DNA from: a virus | Length of the DNA: 22,680 nt | Virus record (IMG/VR): IMGVR_UViG_3300008114_000233 | Location: 1 to 22,680 of that record | Reading direction: 5' to 3' (one strand) | Shown here: in pieces, positions 1 to 19,976 of the stretch | How positions within the stretch are numbered: position 1 is the first letter of the stretch | Layout: every line of letters starts with the position of its first letter | The notes under the pieces: model-generated | Told to the model about the DNA's origin: nothing | The model's database searches: none | What the model saw: the letters and a program-made list of their open reading frames with translations, nothing else | Program-made: the position numbers and the translations under genes

Positions 1-41
1 GATACTAAAAATAAAACCCATGCTACTTGTCTATCTGCCAT
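1..41 (-). CDS. Start of a further gene, possible small membrane protein (partial)
   Basis: An ATG at 41 opens a frame that stays open to the window edge and reads MADRQVAWVLFLV. It overlaps the last 11 bases of the deformylase gene in another frame, the same tight packing seen between other genes here. The A-rich, purine-rich stretch before it is only a weak ribosome binding site. The run of hydrophobic residues after a short polar start would suit a membrane helix. Only 13 codons are visible, so the product cannot be named; a second ATG at 21 (reading MGFIFSI) is a less convincing alternative. Confidence 0.4.
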   Translation of the reverse strand, partial: MADRQVAWVLFLV

Positions 42-627
42 TTTTCTTTTTTCGTGTAATTGTTTTAATAATTTTATCTTGTTTTTGTCTTGCTAACCTC
101 AATGAAACTGGCCCAGCATGTTGCACAAACTTGATACCATTCATATGGTCTAGTTCGTGTTGATAACATCTTGCAGTTAAACCTTCCATTTTCATTTGAA
201 TGTGTTCGCCGTTTTCATTATAGAATGAAGCCATAATCCATGACGGTCTTTCTATTTTAAGATATAAAGCAGGATAGGAGAGGCAACCTTCGTTATCTTT
301 TATCATTTCTGCCGATTGGTCAATAATTTGTGGGTTGATACAGGCAAACTGAAAGTGTTCGGTGCCGATTACAAACACTCTTTCAAAAACACCACATTGA
401 TTAGCTGAAAGGCCTAATCCATTAAATTGTTTCATAGTCATCTTTAATCGTTTAATTAAAGTATTCATGTTTTGATTAGGTAATGCGTTCTTATATTGTG
501 GTACTGGTTTGCTTAACATTGGATGATTTTCATCAAACAATGGCAATGGTTCAATCTTTTCTTCTTTTGTAATATTAGCACCAGTATCAATGGTGAATAT
601 TTCTTGACTTAATATATCGTCACTCAT
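31..627 (-). CDS. def: Peptide deformylase (phage-encoded)
   Basis: The enzyme removes the formyl group from the N-terminal methionine of new proteins in the cytoplasm. All three family motifs are present: GLGLSANQ (residues 70-77), EGCLS (113-117, metal ligand Cys115) and QHELDH (156-161, ligands His157 and His161 with catalytic Glu158). The 198 residues include a 25-35 residue N-terminal extension and a basic C-terminal helix ending in RKKKNGR. The start is supported by a 4-base ATGA overlap with the gp46 stop and an AGGA upstream, so it is probably translationally coupled to gp46. Phage deformylases are well known in marine T4-like phages, where they are thought to keep host or photosystem-type protein turnover going; the reason for its place beside the recombination nuclease is not evident. 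Confidence 0.95.
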   Translation of the reverse strand: MSDDILSQEIFTIDTGANITKEEKIEPLPLFDENHPMLSKPVPQYKNALPNQNMNTLIKRLKMTMKQFNGLGLSANQCGVFERVFVIGTEHFQFACINPQIIDQSAEMIKDNEGCLSYPALYLKIERPSWIMASFYNENGEHIQMKMEGLTARCYQHELDHMNGIKFVQHAGPVSLRLARQKQDKIIKTITRKKKNGR

Positions 628-12454: not shown

Positions 12455-14101
12455 TTAATTTCTATTTATGCTACTATACTTTTCCACATCAGCATCAAGT
12501 TGTGGAGTTTTTGAATCTTCAGCACCCTTTTCAACGGTGTTGTCTTCTGGTGGATATTGCTCAGGTGAAACCTGTTCACCGTCTTGCATTGTTGGACCAC
12601 CTGTACCGTTATCTTCTTCTTCTTTGATTTCTTTTTCCATCTGTTGAATATCTTCGTCATTCATTTGAAGAATATTCTTACGAACCCATTTAGCAGAATA
12701 ATAACGACCAATATATGGGTCAACTGTCTGTAATAGACCTACTCTTTCACGGAGTAGTTCAGCGTCACGCATTTCGGTAAAGTTATTATCTTTTAAGAAG
12801 TCATAGTAAATAGCTTCTTTGAAATCTTCCCATTCTTCTTGTGTGCAAATACCTTTAAGCACCAATTGAACACGAAGAGCCTGGTCAAAAATTTGAGAGA
12901 ATTTATTTCTTAATCTTTGGATGAATTTAGCAAACTTAACTTCATCTCGTGTCACTTCAGATGTTCTACCAACACCAATCATACCGCCTTGTTGTGGTTC
13001 TAATCGTGAGATAGGAACATTTAATGACTGTAATAGTTTTTGACGGAAATACTTCACATCTTCCAACTCACCAAGATTTTGGCCAGCTGGTAATGTAGTA
13101 ATTTCAGTACCTTTGCCACCTTCACGGCGTGGTAACCAGAAATCTTCAAGCATTGACATGTGCTTGCGGTCATCTCTTAACTCACCAGTAGCTGCGTCAT
13201 ATACCATCTTGTTACGATACTTGACCATAACATCACGGAGATATTGTTCAGCTTTACCTTTAGGAAGATTACCTACATCAATGTAGAATATTCGTCTTTC
13301 AGGTGCTCTTGATAAGCGATAGATAACGATTGCATCTTCAATCATTCTTAATTGATTGAGTGGCTTAATTGCTTTATGTAAGTATGAAATAACAAAAGTG
13401 TTCTTTGCATCCATCAAACCTGAATTCACATTAATGATAGATTCTGGTGCAATTCTTAAACCAGCATTTACATTACTTGTATAGGTTTGAGTTGTAGAAC
13501 CTTTGTCATTATAAACATAATACTCAGCAATAGATGCTATAATTTGAGCGCCAGTTTTTGGGTCACGCTCTTTTTTAATCTCACGCACTTTACGAATCTT
13601 GCGTGGGTCAATATATCTTAATTCCTTGATACCTTCTTTAGGTGTTTTCTCATCAACGACTATATGAAAGTTAATTCTACCGTCAATATACCAACGCTTA
13701 AATAAGTCATCAGCCAGATTGCTAAAGTTAAGCATCTTCTGAACATTATTGTATTCTTCAAGGATTTTCTTTTTAATAGATTCAGGTTGTTGTAGTTTAT
13801 CTAAAACAATATTAGCTACTTTGCCTGTTTCATCATGGGTGATGGCTTCATTGACAATATCATCAATCGCCATTTCTAATTCTGGATGGTTTGCCATCTC
13901 ACGATAGCGTGTTACTAATTCAATTTCATTACGAACTGAACCTTCTAAATCTACATAAGTTCCATAGTGAGCCGTAGATGTAATGGTAACTGCACCATCA
14001 TCCATGCTCTCCGTTGGAAGTGTAAAGGAAGGCTGCTCAGGTAATTGCGGTTGGACAATGTCCTTCCGACCTAAGGTGAACCCAAAGAGTTTGACTGCCA
14101 T
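12455..14101 (-). CDS. 20: Portal vertex protein gp20
   Basis: Forms the dodecameric portal ring through which DNA is packaged and to which the neck attaches. The 548 residues (T4: 524) show the conserved gp20 stretches: the N-terminal THDETGKVANIVLD region, INFHIVVDEKTPKEGIKELR, LRYIDPRKIRKVREI, YRLSRAPERRIFYIDVGNLP and the FLKDNNFTEMRDAELLRERV near the C-terminus, then an acidic tail. AGGATGA lies before the ATG. A strong UUCG-loop terminator stands between gp19 and this gene, so its expression may rely on read-through, which would suit the small number of portal subunits needed (inference). Confidence 0.97.
   Translation of the reverse strand: MAVKLFGFTLGRKDIVQPQLPEQPSFTLPTESMDDGAVTITSTAHYGTYVDLEGSVRNEIELVTRYREMANHPELEMAIDDIVNEAITHDETGKVANIVLDKLQQPESIKKKILEEYNNVQKMLNFSNLADDLFKRWYIDGRINFHIVVDEKTPKEGIKELRYIDPRKIRKVREIKKERDPKTGAQIIASIAEYYVYNDKGSTTQTYTSNVNAGLRIAPESIINVNSGLMDAKNTFVISYLHKAIKPLNQLRMIEDAIVIYRLSRAPERRIFYIDVGNLPKGKAEQYLRDVMVKYRNKMVYDAATGELRDDRKHMSMLEDFWLPRREGGKGTEITTLPAGQNLGELEDVKYFRQKLLQSLNVPISRLEPQQGGMIGVGRTSEVTRDEVKFAKFIQRLRNKFSQIFDQALRVQLVLKGICTQEEWEDFKEAIYYDFLKDNNFTEMRDAELLRERVGLLQTVDPYIGRYYSAKWVRKNILQMNDEDIQQMEKEIKEEEDNGTGGPTMQDGEQVSPEQYPPEDNTVEKGAEDSKTPQLDADVEKYSSINRN
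12463..12470 (-). promoter_or_regulatory. Late-promoter-like box CATAAATA before gp67
   Basis: The minus strand reads CATAAATA, one mismatch from the T4 late element, 20 bases upstream of the gp67-like start. It overlaps the last codons of the portal gene. The spacing is equal to that of the other late boxes, and the genes it would drive (core proteins) are needed in far larger amounts than the portal. Confidence 0.4.
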
Positions 14102-14712: not shown

Positions 14713-14720
14713 TATTTATT
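14713..14720 (-). promoter_or_regulatory. Late-promoter-like box AATAAATA before gp19
   Basis: The minus strand reads AATAAATA, one mismatch from the T4 late element, 20 bases upstream of gp19 and overlapping the gp18 stop codon. It is weak alone; the fixed spacing shared with three other boxes supports it. Confidence 0.38.
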
Positions 14721-16416
14721 AGAACTTCCCAACAACTTCGTCAAAGCTTACGCCTGTTCTTACTGCAACAAAGTTGAGTTGGATAAAGTTGATTGAACGA
14801 GCAGGTTTGATGTAGATGTCACCAACAAACTCATTTCTATCTATAACTTCTGGTGTATTATTTGATTCGTCACAGACCACACGGAAGTCAAAAATACCAC
14901 GACGACCTTGAACATCTCGTAAATATGGTTCTACAAGATTTACAAACTGTGCTCTAGTGAATTGGTCATTGAACTCAAATAGAGAGAAGCGAGCTGCACG
15001 AGCAAGAGCTTTCTCAAGCACAATAAACAATCTACGAACATTGATACGGTCAAATGCACTTGGTTTAGATAAGAGTGTCTTATCACCAAATAACACTACA
15101 CCTTCGCCTTGGAATGAAACAACAGGATTAATACCTTTTACATACAAATCATCACGATTTGCTTTTGTTGGATTCCATGCGAGTTTAATTACATTTTTGA
15201 TAATACCACGATTGAGACCGCCTGGTGAAAACCATGGGTCACGCTCAAGGTCTGTTCTTGCACATAGACCAGCGATGTCACCATTTAATGGTACCCAGCG
15301 ATATACATCGTTATATTTGTCGTATTGATATTTCCAGTTACCGTCTAATACAGCGTATGATGTGCTTGTAAGAGTTTCACGGTATGCTTTGATGTCTGTT
15401 ACTTCAGAACCAGCATTGTCAACCACATCTGCTTTTTCTGGAGATACAAATACTAGGCAATCTTTACGAGTTTCTGCCATTGAAATTAAATCAGTTACAA
15501 CTGTTGCATTAGCAGGACCAGATACAACTAAAGATATATCTACAGCTTCTGCATTTTCAAAATAGTCGTATGCAGTAACCACATTAGCAGTTGAAATTGT
15601 ACCGTCTGCACCACCAATGAGTGAGATTGTAGCATTAGCTGTTAAGTTAGTAAATGAGATGCCTGCAGCTGCACTTCCCCATGTTGAGGATGCGTTAGCA
15701 TATGAAGCACCTGCGTTAGCTGTTGGATGTGATAACCAATGAATGTATTTTGATTTGTTTGCAATAACATTCTTGTAGTAGTTTGTATTGCCTGAATCAT
15801 CTTTAGCATCTGAAGCTTTAGATACAAAGGCATATTTTTCAAGAACTGTGCCTTGTGTACCTGTAAATTTACCATCTTCGTCAACAACGATAATGTGAAT
15901 TTCGTCATTAGCGCCACCAGCATTTGATGTGTATGTTGATGTAGAAGGTGCTGATGTAAACTGTGTAGCATAAGCCCAACCAGTATATGTGTTTGCATCA
16001 GCAACAGAAACTTTAAGTGAGTTACCTAAAGCGCCTGCATAGCGAGCTGCAAATTCACCATATGTGGTTGCACCACTTGAACGATTATCTAACCAATCGT
16101 CATCGTTTTTAATTAATACTGCTGAACCGTTAGATACAGCGTTCTTTGTTGATGCAACATTAGCCGCACGAACAACTTTAAGATTATTTGAGTATGCTAG
16201 GAAGTTTGCTGCTGAGAACCAGTATTCATAGTTATCAGTTGTAGGTTTACCAAATCTATCTACTAGATTCACCTCATCTGAAATAGTTATAATTTCACCG
16301 ACTGGACCCCACAAAAACACCCCCGCAAATGCTCCAATTGATGTTGGAACGGAAGGGACAATTGTAGTCAAATCTACTTCTGATACATTTACCCCAGGTG
16401 AGAGCTGAAATGCCAT
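14719..16416 (-). CDS. 18: Tail sheath protein gp18
   Basis: Contractile sheath subunit around the tail tube. The 565 residues (T4: 659) begin AFQLSPGVNVSEVDLTTIVP, the conserved N-terminal arm, followed by GAFAGVFLWGPVG. The C-terminal core is strongly conserved: LDGNWKYQYDKYNDVYRWVP, DRINVRRLFIVLEKALARAA, RFSLFEFNDQFTRAQF and the final IKPARSINFIQLNFVAVRTG. The middle (about 110-260) is Thr/Ala/Asn-rich and is the variable surface domain, reduced compared with T4. AAGGAG lies 7 bases before the ATG, in a 78-base gap after gp17 that shows a TATAAAAA stretch but no convincing promoter or terminator. Confidence 0.97.
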   Translation of the reverse strand: MAFQLSPGVNVSEVDLTTIVPSVPTSIGAFAGVFLWGPVGEIITISDEVNLVDRFGKPTTDNYEYWFSAANFLAYSNNLKVVRAANVASTKNAVSNGSAVLIKNDDDWLDNRSSGATTYGEFAARYAGALGNSLKVSVADANTYTGWAYATQFTSAPSTSTYTSNAGGANDEIHIIVVDEDGKFTGTQGTVLEKYAFVSKASDAKDDSGNTNYYKNVIANKSKYIHWLSHPTANAGASYANASSTWGSAAAGISFTNLTANATISLIGGADGTISTANVVTAYDYFENAEAVDISLVVSGPANATVVTDLISMAETRKDCLVFVSPEKADVVDNAGSEVTDIKAYRETLTSTSYAVLDGNWKYQYDKYNDVYRWVPLNGDIAGLCARTDLERDPWFSPGGLNRGIIKNVIKLAWNPTKANRDDLYVKGINPVVSFQGEGVVLFGDKTLLSKPSAFDRINVRRLFIVLEKALARAARFSLFEFNDQFTRAQFVNLVEPYLRDVQGRRGIFDFRVVCDESNNTPEVIDRNEFVGDIYIKPARSINFIQLNFVAVRTGVSFDEVVGKF

Positions 16417-16494: not shown

Positions 16495-18123
16495 TTAGAA
16501 AGTTGAAGGAGTATAACCTCTTTCCGTCCATATATCATTATTTTCACGGTCAATCGTAATTTCTTCTCGTTTTCCGTCATCTATGATACCAACAGGGGCT
16601 AAATCTTCATCAACCAACATGTTCTGCTCTGCCAACATTAACTTTCTTACATCAATACTTGTAGAATCCTTAAAGAAAGTCTGCGCTGTCAACCACGCAA
16701 ATAGAACTAATCCCATCACCAAATCGTCATTGTTGCCTTCTTCAGCTGCGTAACTATCACGAACCCTTGAAAAGGTATTCATTTCAGCTATTGTGTCAAA
16801 GTCATTAATGATTAACTTATCGTTTTCAATAAGTGTTTTTAAGTTAGCACACCCAATTTTCTTCACAGATTTGGTTGTTTTAATACCAAAGGAAGTAGAC
16901 CGTCTAAAACCAGCCGATATACTCTGACCTTTGATATGGTGGTGTTCTAACTTATAAATGTTTTCATACTCTAAATCATAATGCAATATGTCAACCACTT
17001 GTTGACCAATGTTATTTGTTTCAATTAACGCATAGGCCTCATTATATTTCTTGGCCACCGAATAGATGATGGTTGGAAAGAATAATAAAGGCAATTTATT
17101 ATTTCTATATTTAGCGACCTGCCTATAAGGTGTTTCTGTCACATCAACCACATTAATGGTAGAATAGTCAGCCTCTACACCCTCAGCACAGTCAACCGTG
17201 CAAATATAAAGTCTGCCAGGTATAGGTTGTTCATATATGTCCAAACCCTCATCTGAAGATATTGGATTATGAAATGCTAAACTTCTTAACTTGGTTCCAG
17301 AAATCAATGTTGCTGATGAACCAATAAATTCTGTTTCAAACTCTACACGGAACTGTTCTTCACTTGTATTCCGTATTGTTTCTTCTTTCCACTTTTCATC
17401 ACGGCCTGGTACCATTGACCAATGGACTTCCAATGGTTTGTATGTAGAACGACCTTCAATTGCATCAGTCCACATTTTATAAAACTGGTTCAATCCGTTT
17501 GGTGTGGATACAATAATAACTTTGGTCGTTTGACCAGAAGAAATCACAGGATAAGTTGATTGGAAAAAGTCTTGCGCCATATTGTGAGGCACAAACGCAA
17601 ACTCATCAAGGAATATTAGATTATAAGAACCGCCTCGGACACCGGCTGCGGATGTTGCATATGCAAATATCTTTGAACCATTTTCTAATTCAATATTACC
17701 TTTATTCCAAACCACAACGCCTTGCTGTAACCACAAAGGCAAATATTCATAGGCCTTTGTTAATCGGTCCAAAATCTCACGAGCTAATGAACCCTTATTT
17801 GCTAAAATACCAACTGTATAATCTGGATTAAATAAAACAGACCATAACATATAACCTACTGTCGTGGTTGTTTTACCAACCTGACGAGGCATTTTTGCAA
17901 TACAAAAACGATTCTCATGGAAAGTTTTGACCATTTTTTCTTGGAATGGCCACATGTCAAACGGAACCAAACCGTGGTCCACATTGACAATCTTTACATA
18001 ATTCTTAATAAAGTGTACCGGGTCTTCGGTACATTTAATAATTTCTGCTACTTGTTCTTCTGTATAAGATAGTTCAACACCCACCCTTTTGAGGCGGTCA
18101 TTACCAAGATATCCGTCAGACAT
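16495..18123 (-). CDS. 17: Terminase large subunit gp17 (packaging ATPase-nuclease)
   Basis: Motor that translocates DNA into the prohead and cuts concatemers. ATPase domain: WPFQEKM adenine-binding region (58-64), Walker A PRQVGKTT (79-86), Walker B IFLDEF with Asp173 and catalytic Glu174, and the STPNG coupling motif (206-210). Nuclease domain: Asp311 (TVDCAEGVEADYS), Glu368 (LIETNN) and Asp466/467 (NNDDLVMG), matching the T4 acidic triad. The 542 residues lack part of the T4 N-terminus (610). The ATG lies 1 base after the Dps stop with no ribosome binding site of its own, so translation is probably coupled to Dps. Confidence 0.98.
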   Translation of the reverse strand: MSDGYLGNDRLKRVGVELSYTEEQVAEIIKCTEDPVHFIKNYVKIVNVDHGLVPFDMWPFQEKMVKTFHENRFCIAKMPRQVGKTTTTVGYMLWSVLFNPDYTVGILANKGSLAREILDRLTKAYEYLPLWLQQGVVVWNKGNIELENGSKIFAYATSAAGVRGGSYNLIFLDEFAFVPHNMAQDFFQSTYPVISSGQTTKVIIVSTPNGLNQFYKMWTDAIEGRSTYKPLEVHWSMVPGRDEKWKEETIRNTSEEQFRVEFETEFIGSSATLISGTKLRSLAFHNPISSDEGLDIYEQPIPGRLYICTVDCAEGVEADYSTINVVDVTETPYRQVAKYRNNKLPLLFFPTIIYSVAKKYNEAYALIETNNIGQQVVDILHYDLEYENIYKLEHHHIKGQSISAGFRRSTSFGIKTTKSVKKIGCANLKTLIENDKLIINDFDTIAEMNTFSRVRDSYAAEEGNNDDLVMGLVLFAWLTAQTFFKDSTSIDVRKLMLAEQNMLVDEDLAPVGIIDDGKREEITIDRENNDIWTERGYTPSTF

Positions 18124-18124
18124 T

Positions 18125-18559
18125 TTATTTGATTAGACTACTCAAGAACCATGCTTGTTTTTGGTGTTGGTCTAATATATCCTGTAAGAAGTTAGATATT
18201 GCTGGTTCACCAGCTTGGTCAGCTAAAACAATACCAGCTCTTAAATGAATAATGAAACGGTCATTATCACTCTTTAATTGTGTAAACATTCCAATAGCTG
18301 TTGGTATATTTTCATTGTCTTGAATGTCACATAGTTCAAGCATTCTATCCAAACCTGTTGGAGAATATGAACCTAGCATACGAATCTTTTCAGAGATTAA
18401 ATCTGTATTGTTCCATACTTGGGTATAAAATGCACCTAGAAAGGCGTGATAATCATTGAAATTTGGGCCTTCTACATTCCAATGAAATGAGTGAGCCTTA
18501 AAATACAAACCAAAGTTTGTACCTAAAATTGTTTTGAGTTGTGCGACTAATTTTTCCAT
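18125..18559 (-). CDS. dps: Dps-family ferritin-like protein (DNA protection / iron oxidation)
   Basis: Dps proteins form 12-subunit shells that oxidise Fe(II), usually with peroxide, store iron and shield DNA. The 144 residues carry the family block YFKAHSFHWNVEGPNF followed by YHAFLGAFYTQVW and DLISEKIRMLG. The inter-subunit ferroxidase ligands are all present with exact spacing: His26, His38, Asp53, Glu57 (intervals 12, 15, 4, as in Listeria Dps 31-43-58-62). The C-terminus HQKQAWFLSSLI is also typical. There is no Lys-rich N-terminal tail, so direct DNA binding may be weak. AAGGA lies 7 bases before the ATG. It sits between gp16 and gp17, 8 bases after one and 1 base before the other, an unusual insertion in the T4 core order. 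Confidence 0.9.
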   Translation of the reverse strand: MEKLVAQLKTILGTNFGLYFKAHSFHWNVEGPNFNDYHAFLGAFYTQVWNNTDLISEKIRMLGSYSPTGLDRMLELCDIQDNENIPTAIGMFTQLKSDNDRFIIHLRAGIVLADQAGEPAISNFLQDILDQHQKQAWFLSSLIK

Positions 18560-18567
18560 AGTAATCC

Positions 18568-18981
18568 TTATTTATTGTTCTTCAAAAACTTAACTAATTC
18601 GTTTGTAGAACCAACAAAAATAGCCTTATCTACATTTAGATTTTTTGCGTTTCCTGCAAAACCATCTCCATTAGGTGTTAAATCTTTGCGTTTTTTTTGC
18701 AAATCCAACAAATCTTTATTCATATCTGCCAAACTTTTAATTAAAGTTGCAGCCACTTCATATGCACGAGGATGTTCTGATTCTTTAGCCACAGCTAATA
18801 GTTGATCCATAGCTTGATTGCCTTTGGCTATAAGTGTTCTCATATTACTACGAGCAAAATCAGCATCTTCTTCAACCTGATTTGTTGGAATAACTTCTTC
18901 AGGTTGCACTTCAACCACAGGGTTAATTTCTATGGGCTCAGTATTTAGCGCTTCACTTATCTTATTATTTAATTTACTCAT
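18568..18981 (-). CDS. 16: Terminase small subunit gp16
   Basis: Regulates DNA recognition and gp17 activity at packaging initiation. The 137 residues (T4: 164) have the gp16 central helical pair: DFARSNMRTLIAKGNQAMDQ and LLAVAKESEHPRAYEVAATL, then IKSLADMNKDLLDLQKKRKD, flanked by a disordered acidic/Pro-rich N-terminus and a C-terminus with VGSTNELVKFLKNN. Position between gp15 and gp17 fits T4 apart from the Dps gene. The start overlaps the gp15 stop by 4 bases (ATGA). Confidence 0.88.
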   Translation of the reverse strand: MSKLNNKISEALNTEPIEINPVVEVQPEEVIPTNQVEEDADFARSNMRTLIAKGNQAMDQLLAVAKESEHPRAYEVAATLIKSLADMNKDLLDLQKKRKDLTPNGDGFAGNAKNLNVDKAIFVGSTNELVKFLKNNK

Positions 18982-19976
18982 GGTGAATCTGGATATTCAT
19001 ATATGGTTTCAGTAAATCCAAAATCATCATCAACATTAGCTGTGATTGGGTCTGGATTGGTAATAATTATAACAGTCTTAACTGGATTAGCATCAACGGT
19101 TTTAATAGTATATTTAGCGTTTGTTTGGGTACCAAGAACAATATCATTAGCTTGTAATGGTTTATTAAGATTACCTACTACTAAAACGCCTGTATTTGAA
19201 TTACTAAAATAAGCTACATCACCGGTAACACCACGGTCTTCTACAAAAATAGTTTCTTCTTCAGCAAAGTAATTAGAACCATTTGCATAATCTACAAAAA
19301 CTTTCTGTGAAGTTCTTGAGATGGTATCAATATGTAGGTTCGTATTTGCTTGCTCAATAATGTTTTGACTTGTTTTAACTGGTGGGTAAATGAAACCTTT
19401 GGCAGTAAAATCTAAAGTCCAAATAATTAATCGTGTTGATAACATATCACCCTCATAATCAACTTCAGGTGAAGCTGAGTTGAGTATAATGGGCATGTCA
19501 TATTTCTGTGTCATGTTTGAATTGAAATTAACAGTGACATTAAAATCTGGTGTAAAGAACGGCAATATTTGTTCAAGTATTTGTGTGCCGTCTTCATGGT
19601 TTCTCACATAAATTGATAAGGTAAAATCAAAGTTATATGGAATTGGAGCATATTGTGTTTTGAGCCCATCGGCAGTATTGTATGAAAAGTTTTGTAATGT
19701 AGATACTTGCTTACGAGAAGAATCATAACCCAATCCAATGAGTTCAAAGGATATACGAGGAACGACCGTGGCGATAGATTTAGTTAAGTTTGGGTCAGAA
19801 GTAATACGAGTTAAGTATTTCTCTTTGGAACCATAGGATAATGGAACTCTAAAGACTTCTTTTTTGGTTGCCCCATCCAATGTATACCTTTGTAGGATAA
19901 TATCATTAAAAAGAGAACCAAAAGCCACTACGACTTTTCGTATTGTTCTATTATAAAATTGTGCGTTACCTAGCAT
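18978..19976 (-). CDS. 15: Tail sheath stabiliser / tail terminator gp15
   Basis: Caps the tail and joins it to the neck. The N-terminal 200 residues match gp15: FYNRTIRKVVVAFGSLFNDI, IILQR, VFRVPLSYGSKEKYLTRI (T4: IRVPITYASKEHF), then VVPRISFELIGLGYDSSRK. At 332 residues it is about 60 longer than T4 gp15 (272). The excess is a C-terminal beta-rich region: residues 239-295 resemble a segment of gp14 (see findings), followed by an acidic tail. The start shares a base with the gp14 stop (TAATG), implying coupled translation. Confidence 0.93.
   Translation of the reverse strand: MLGNAQFYNRTIRKVVVAFGSLFNDIILQRYTLDGATKKEVFRVPLSYGSKEKYLTRITSDPNLTKSIATVVPRISFELIGLGYDSSRKQVSTLQNFSYNTADGLKTQYAPIPYNFDFTLSIYVRNHEDGTQILEQILPFFTPDFNVTVNFNSNMTQKYDMPIILNSASPEVDYEGDMLSTRLIIWTLDFTAKGFIYPPVKTSQNIIEQANTNLHIDTISRTSQKVFVDYANGSNYFAEEETIFVEDRGVTGDVAYFSNSNTGVLVVGNLNKPLQANDIVLGTQTNAKYTIKTVDANPVKTVIIITNPDPITANVDDDFGFTETIYEYPDSP

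Follow-up and report, generated by a model that had tools for sequence, protein, structure and literature searches.

A Dps-type mini-ferritin gene nearly fixed between the terminase genes of a group of uncultured T4-like phages, with exchange of alleles in place

A Dps gene within a T4-like terminase module

We analysed a 22,680-nucleotide stretch of viral DNA (the window; positions 1 to 22,680 of IMG/VR record IMGVR_UViG_3300008114_000233). Homologues of gp15, gp16, gp17, gp18 (sheath), gp19 (tube) and gp20 (portal) lie there in the order of the T4-like terminase module, all on one strand, with a Dps gene placed in the same run between the gp16 and gp17 homologues. The features referred to below are, in the direction of the run:

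18978-19976, minus strand: gp15-like tail sheath stabiliser, on the upstream side of the run (PF16724, 2.3e-70)
18568-18981, minus strand: small terminase subunit TerS, gp16-like, 137 aa (PF11053, 1.5e-13; phrog_445, 1.5e-35)
18560-18578, minus strand: Dps leader with a Shine-Dalgarno sequence (TAAGGA, some 8 bases 5' of the ATG; duplex energy -6.0); it overlaps TerS at the 3' end of that gene
18125-18559, minus strand: Dps-type mini-ferritin gene, 144 aa, ATG start (Pfam, PHROG and PDB matches, AlphaFold2 model, ligands H26, H38, D53 and E57)
16495-18123, minus strand: large terminase subunit TerL, gp17-like, 542 aa (PF03237, 3.3e-28; PF17289)
14719-16416, minus strand: gp18-like tail sheath, on the downstream side of the run (PF04984, PF17482)
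12455-14101, minus strand: gp20-like portal, on the downstream side of the run (PF07230, 6e-180)

An earlier note, made from the sequence alone, had described a 144-residue Dps-type reading frame between gp16 and gp17 with gaps of 8 bases and 1 base. The profile matches of TerS and TerL and the coordinates of both genes bear this out, with 8 bases separating Dps from TerS and TerL starting 1 base past the Dps stop codon. Elsewhere in the window (31-627, minus strand), a protein with an HELDH motif resembles peptide deformylase as judged by eye; peptide deformylase is carried by marine T4-like phages.

Fold and ferroxidase ligands

The predicted Dps protein matches Pfam Ferritin (PF00210) at 1.1e-20 (74 bits against a cut-off of 24.5) and phrog_3636 at 3.2e-29, in agreement with the family membership proposed for it in the note, and it also matches NCBIfam Dps equivalog models with scores below their strict cut-offs. 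The best solved relative in a phmmer search of the PDB is the Dps PA0962 of P. aeruginosa (8ff9, 3.8e-20). An AlphaFold2 monomer, inferred with 32 relatives as input (pLDDT 95.7), contains helices at residues 2-28, 34-61, 70-76, 88-115 and 119-143, that is, a four-helix bundle with the short BC-loop helix of the Dps type. Foldseek places it with solved Dps chains at TM 0.92-0.96, and VIA-align pairs it with such chains over the whole length at Z up to 23.3. The note had proposed a structure prediction as a dodecamer; the four-helix bundle was recovered in a model of the monomer only, and a dodecameric cage with ferroxidase sites between subunits would be expected from homology.

Bacterial Dps proteins (the PA0962 type 8ff9, MrgA, Dlp-1/2 and Listeria Dps) are alike in fold (TM 0.94-0.96, Z 20-23) and share both the short helix between helices B and C and the ligands H-x11-H-x14-D-x3-E. 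However, the window Dps is at most about 31% identical to the solved bacterial proteins, has Gly at the position of a fifth acidic residue, lacks an N-terminal extension and is encoded in a phage terminase operon.

The four ligands read from the sequence in the note (His26, His38, Asp53 and Glu57) proved to be correctly named. All 320 distinct full-length phage Dps sequences carry the H-x11-H-x14-D-x3-E motif, 188/188 from loci with Dps in the terminase slot and 132/132 from other phage contexts. The reading frame in the window is confirmed as a real protein of the Dps/ferritin fold with ferroxidase ligands. Classical Dps sites usually include a fifth acidic residue four positions after the second His (D67 in E. 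coli, D47 in Listeria). The corresponding residue of the window Dps is Gly42, not an acidic one, and is mostly Gly or Asn in slot members; in the nearest non-slot Dps, nearly all of them cellular, it is Met in 57 of 81. Because these relatives also lack the acidic residue, we do not read its absence as decay, and the idea of a dead enzyme was dropped, the four main ligands being invariant. The fifth residue thus seems to be a common but non-defining trait in this branch of Dps, and its absence could reduce activity.

Occupancy of the terS-terL slot

TerS and/or TerL adjoin Dps in all of the 80 best IMG/VR relatives, and both do so wherever the contig extends far enough. To avoid selecting on Dps, occupancy was counted on IMG/VR contigs picked by TerL alone. 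Dps fills the terS-terL slot at 64 of 69 decidable loci in the clade of the window, at 30 of 33 in its sister clade, and at 29 of 62 in a deep clade with TerL less than 50% identical to that of the window, the last figure being rough since TerS was not recognised at 15 of the 33 Dps-less loci. A search of T4-like genomes for Dps between genes 16 and 17, suggested in the note, hence returns a recurrent arrangement. Fifteen virus records, 58-231 kb long, have a single copy of Dps each. Across a large group of uncultured T4-like phages, Dps travels with the terminase operon as a nearly fixed gene, and it is non-essential in the deep clade, because about half of that clade is without it.

At Dps-less loci, TerS and TerL mostly abut or overlap. 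Two loci have an SNase-family gene (PF00565) instead of Dps between TerS and TerL (L438:1185-1613 and L448:2569-2997), and small ORFs fill the slot in some other Dps-less phages. The nearest cultured phages by TerL (54-57%) are Pelagibacter phage Mosig EXVC030M and T4-like cyanophages, which unlike the window phage carry no Dps at the junction; in Mosig a 69-aa ORF lies at this position, and S-SM1 has an SNase-domain gene upstream of gp17/TerL. The slot is better conserved than the gene that fills it.

The variety of occupants suggests a reading in which the terS-terL junction simply tolerates insertions, with Dps being useful cargo that gains guaranteed late expression and its packaging neighbourhood being meaningless. 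We put the chances of this reading just short of even. Related Dps genes in many phages are placed elsewhere, among virion or non-virion neighbours, as it would predict, yet one occupant being near-fixed over a large clade (64/69 and 30/33) is beyond what a free slot gives. A permissive junction is compatible with the role as an Fe(II)/peroxide sink proposed below and may well explain the position of the gene, so that our confidences in the two are not exclusive. Since the slot tolerates other genes or none, location by itself is no proof of a link with packaging. A special link with the packaging motor is but one reading among several, because the slot can also contain a nuclease gene or nothing and related Dps sit elsewhere.

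Several loci in the collection depart from the compact arrangement. TerL is split into two or three frames about 600-800 bases apart in L025, L026, L028, L030 and L077, as expected of introns with homing endonucleases, or of inteins. About 670 extra bases lie between gp15 and TerS in L143, L149 and L151, and 170-575 extra bases between Dps and TerL in L144 and L014. The 15 virus records contain no psbA, a host marker, and so give no support for cyanobacterial hosts; PADLOC returned only marginal GajA matches, which we take as chance.

Phylogeny and selection

A tree built from 110 phage and 79 cellular Dps separates the cellular side with SH-aLRT 96 and unites the phage proteins in one group. 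This group includes the Dps of L165 (CAIWHI010000271.1), a 132 kb contig that is binned as a Bacteroidetes MAG in GTDB but resembles a phage genome, with Dps among virion genes. The sampled phage Dps thus stand together, separate from the sampled cellular Dps, in a tree that includes only two other phages and a cellular set confined to the nearest hits; the deeper origin may differ. Two subtypes of Dps, about 40% identical to each other, are found in the slot. Median omega is 0.098 for Dps, similar to 0.105 for TerS and 0.054 for TerL, and the slot Dps is under purifying selection.

Cellular Dps exist at about 36-40% identity, as a recent capture or a host gene fragment brought in by misassembly would lead one to expect, and a fragment of the latter kind had been named in the note as grounds for refuting a phage Dps. 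This explanation is ruled out by hundreds of independent contigs with the same gene order and by the phage-only group in the tree. The phage-like length and the purifying selection also speak against it, and we give it practically no credence.

Allele exchange in place

Co-inheritance of Dps with the terminases was expected, but Dps-TerL distances are almost uncorrelated (Mantel Spearman 0.13, p 0.035) as compared with TerS-TerL distances (0.74), a discrepancy that led to the following result. L109 and L110 share 99% amino acid identity in TerL and 98% in TerS but 60% in Dps. Their DNA identity of 95-98% drops to 57-70% only inside Dps and is restored at the start of TerL. Between L109 and L095 the Dps proteins are 92% identical and TerL only 83%; between L110 and L108 the figures are 96% for Dps and 82% for TerL. 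The same pattern of replacement is seen between L122 and L018 and between L035 and L096/L098, and the reverse case, similar Dps with distant terminases, is found in L020 and L053 (Dps 85%, TerL 46%). Among pairs with TerL identity of at least 97%, Dps divergence reaches the background level in 13%, as against 7% for the sheath and none for TerS and gp15, percentages that are descriptive since the pairs are not independent. Assembly chimeras are an unlikely source of this pattern, as each of the two alleles is seen in more than one independent contig (L109 and L112 versus L104, L105 and L110).

These comparisons indicate that near-identical phages exchange Dps alleles in place. Recombination through the flanking terminase ends would swap the Dps gene between phages, such that the slot stays and the allele changes.

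Charge, tails and translation

The window Dps is acidic, with a pI of 5.4, and the pI ranges from 4.72 to 6.21 across all 188 slot members. A Lys/Arg-rich tail at the N- or C-terminus, the mark of DNA-binding Dps of the E. coli type, is seen at neither end of the protein: in the model, helix A begins at residue 2 and the chain closes with helix E. The note had remarked on the lack of a Lys-rich N-terminus, which the start of helix A corroborates, and had taken it to favour an iron role over DNA contact, a preference supported by the acidic pI of the slot members and the absence of both tails. Coating of DNA in the manner of E. coli Dps is unlikely for the phage protein, because it is predicted to lack the tails and its pI is acidic.

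An acidic Dps without DNA-binding tails could also act on the host, by co-assembling or competing with host Dps and blocking condensation of the nucleoid, and alleles swapped to suit different hosts would agree with the replacement seen in near-identical phages. However, the ferroxidase ligands are not needed for such interference and are nevertheless invariant, and we consider it very doubtful.

TerL has no Shine-Dalgarno sequence at any of 118 Dps-bearing loci (median duplex energy -0.4 kcal/mol), extending to the whole family the note's remark that gp17 lacks a ribosome binding site of its own. Dps tends to have one at Dps-bearing loci (median duplex energy -4.25), and the values in the window are -2.2 for TerL and -6.0 for Dps. 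The common Dps-TerL junctions are -1, +1 and +2 bases. Given these tight junctions and the missing Shine-Dalgarno sequence, translation of TerL is likely coupled to that of Dps. TerS genes also have weak Shine-Dalgarno sites, so the missing TerL site would come with the dense packing of the genes and need not be specific to Dps. Late expression of Dps is suggested by its position in the gene run; the T4 late-promoter sequence shows no excess over chance in the window, the consensus used being that of T4, which may not be these phages' own.

Neighbours of related Dps genes

Related Dps genes in other phages adjoin virion structural, baseplate and head-closure genes. A rule that phage Dps sits in virion gene clusters nevertheless fails in a third set, with neighbours being cytidyltransferases, homing endonucleases and radical SAM genes. 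Three BFVD entries from uncultured phages (A0A6J7WPK9, A0A6J7XDU5 and A0A6J7WIS1) are automatically named 'Prohead protease' and include a complete Dps fold, which may mean that a head-maturation protease is fused to Dps. Targeted scans of the IMG/VR loci inspected found no fusion of this kind, and a long open frame in L167, considered as one, is only an upstream extension of the frame.

Virion neighbours, the terminase slot and the BFVD entries could all be explained if Dps, iron-loaded or not, went into the capsid or prohead, for instance as an internal protein or as iron cargo. We hold such a virion or head-assembly part to be rather improbable: no capsid-targeting signal was seen in Dps, the neighbours in the third set are non-structural, and the protease fusion is absent among the inspected loci, the BFVD names being automatic annotations. 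A broader version, in which Dps is a functional partner of packaging or head maturation, kept in the operon, coupled to TerL, with its allele matched to host or head, and joining virion assembly or being carried with iron in the virion, also appears unlikely. Both a virion role and interference with host Dps are possible, with little direct support.

Proposed role

Because the protein is acidic and without DNA-binding tails, we think it more likely to be a soluble, late-made sink for Fe(II) and peroxide than a coat for DNA or a part of the virion. Dps would most likely be made late, from a message shared with the packaging and neck/tail genes. In the infected cell it would act as an enzyme that takes up Fe(II) and uses peroxide to oxidise it at sites between subunits, built from H26, H38, D53 and E57. 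With the resulting Fe(III) stored in Dps, both Fenton reagents would be removed while unpackaged DNA accumulates, DNA that the phage Dps probably does not coat. The Dps stop codon beside the TerL start would couple translation of TerL to that of Dps. Ferroxidase activity and a benefit to the phage are what we infer from the conserved gene. The combined reading, of a working phage Dps that is a near-fixed passenger of the terminase operon, acts as a late-made sink for Fe(II) and peroxide, is coupled to TerL and has its alleles swapped, is in our judgement reasonably probable.

So far, phage Dps has been regarded as an accessory gene that turns up now and then. In the present large group of T4-like phages it is near-core, lies in the operon of the packaging motor, has its catalytic motif in every sequence and is replaced allele by allele between near-identical phages. 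Handling of iron and peroxide seems to matter to these phages during DNA packaging, which offers a concrete, testable case of iron and peroxide in the infected cell limiting DNA packaging or progeny survival. It is also relevant to the question of whether host iron is moved or withheld by phages at lysis, and exchange of alleles in place provides a clean natural experiment on the selection of phage accessory genes.

Relation to known phage Dps

Dps-like genes with a suggested role in oxidative stress are carried by myophages of Lactobacillus plantarum, near replication genes (PMC6669764), and by the gut Gratiaviridae and Flandersviridae, for which a terminase slot is not described (PMC8008677). 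These lineages differ from that of the window, and we found no report of allele exchange for them. Dps in phages is thus already known; the near-fixed terminase slot and the allele exchange are apparently new, as we found no earlier report of Dps between terminase genes or of in-place exchange in the open-licence literature. Cultured phages in the collection have only remote Dps, at most about 38% identical over a short stretch. The one T4-like cultured case with the location of Dps examined is Synechococcus phage S-SRM01 (MW015081, Kyanoviridae), likewise an aquatic phage. However, its Dps is only 28% identical to that of the window, and the gene is some 57 kb distant from that of the terminase, surrounded by small unrelated genes. 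In the GenBank entry of S-SRM01 (MW015081.1, 128216-132177), the names of the tail sheath and the large terminase seem to have been exchanged, and the RefSeq copy calls the TerL match terminase.
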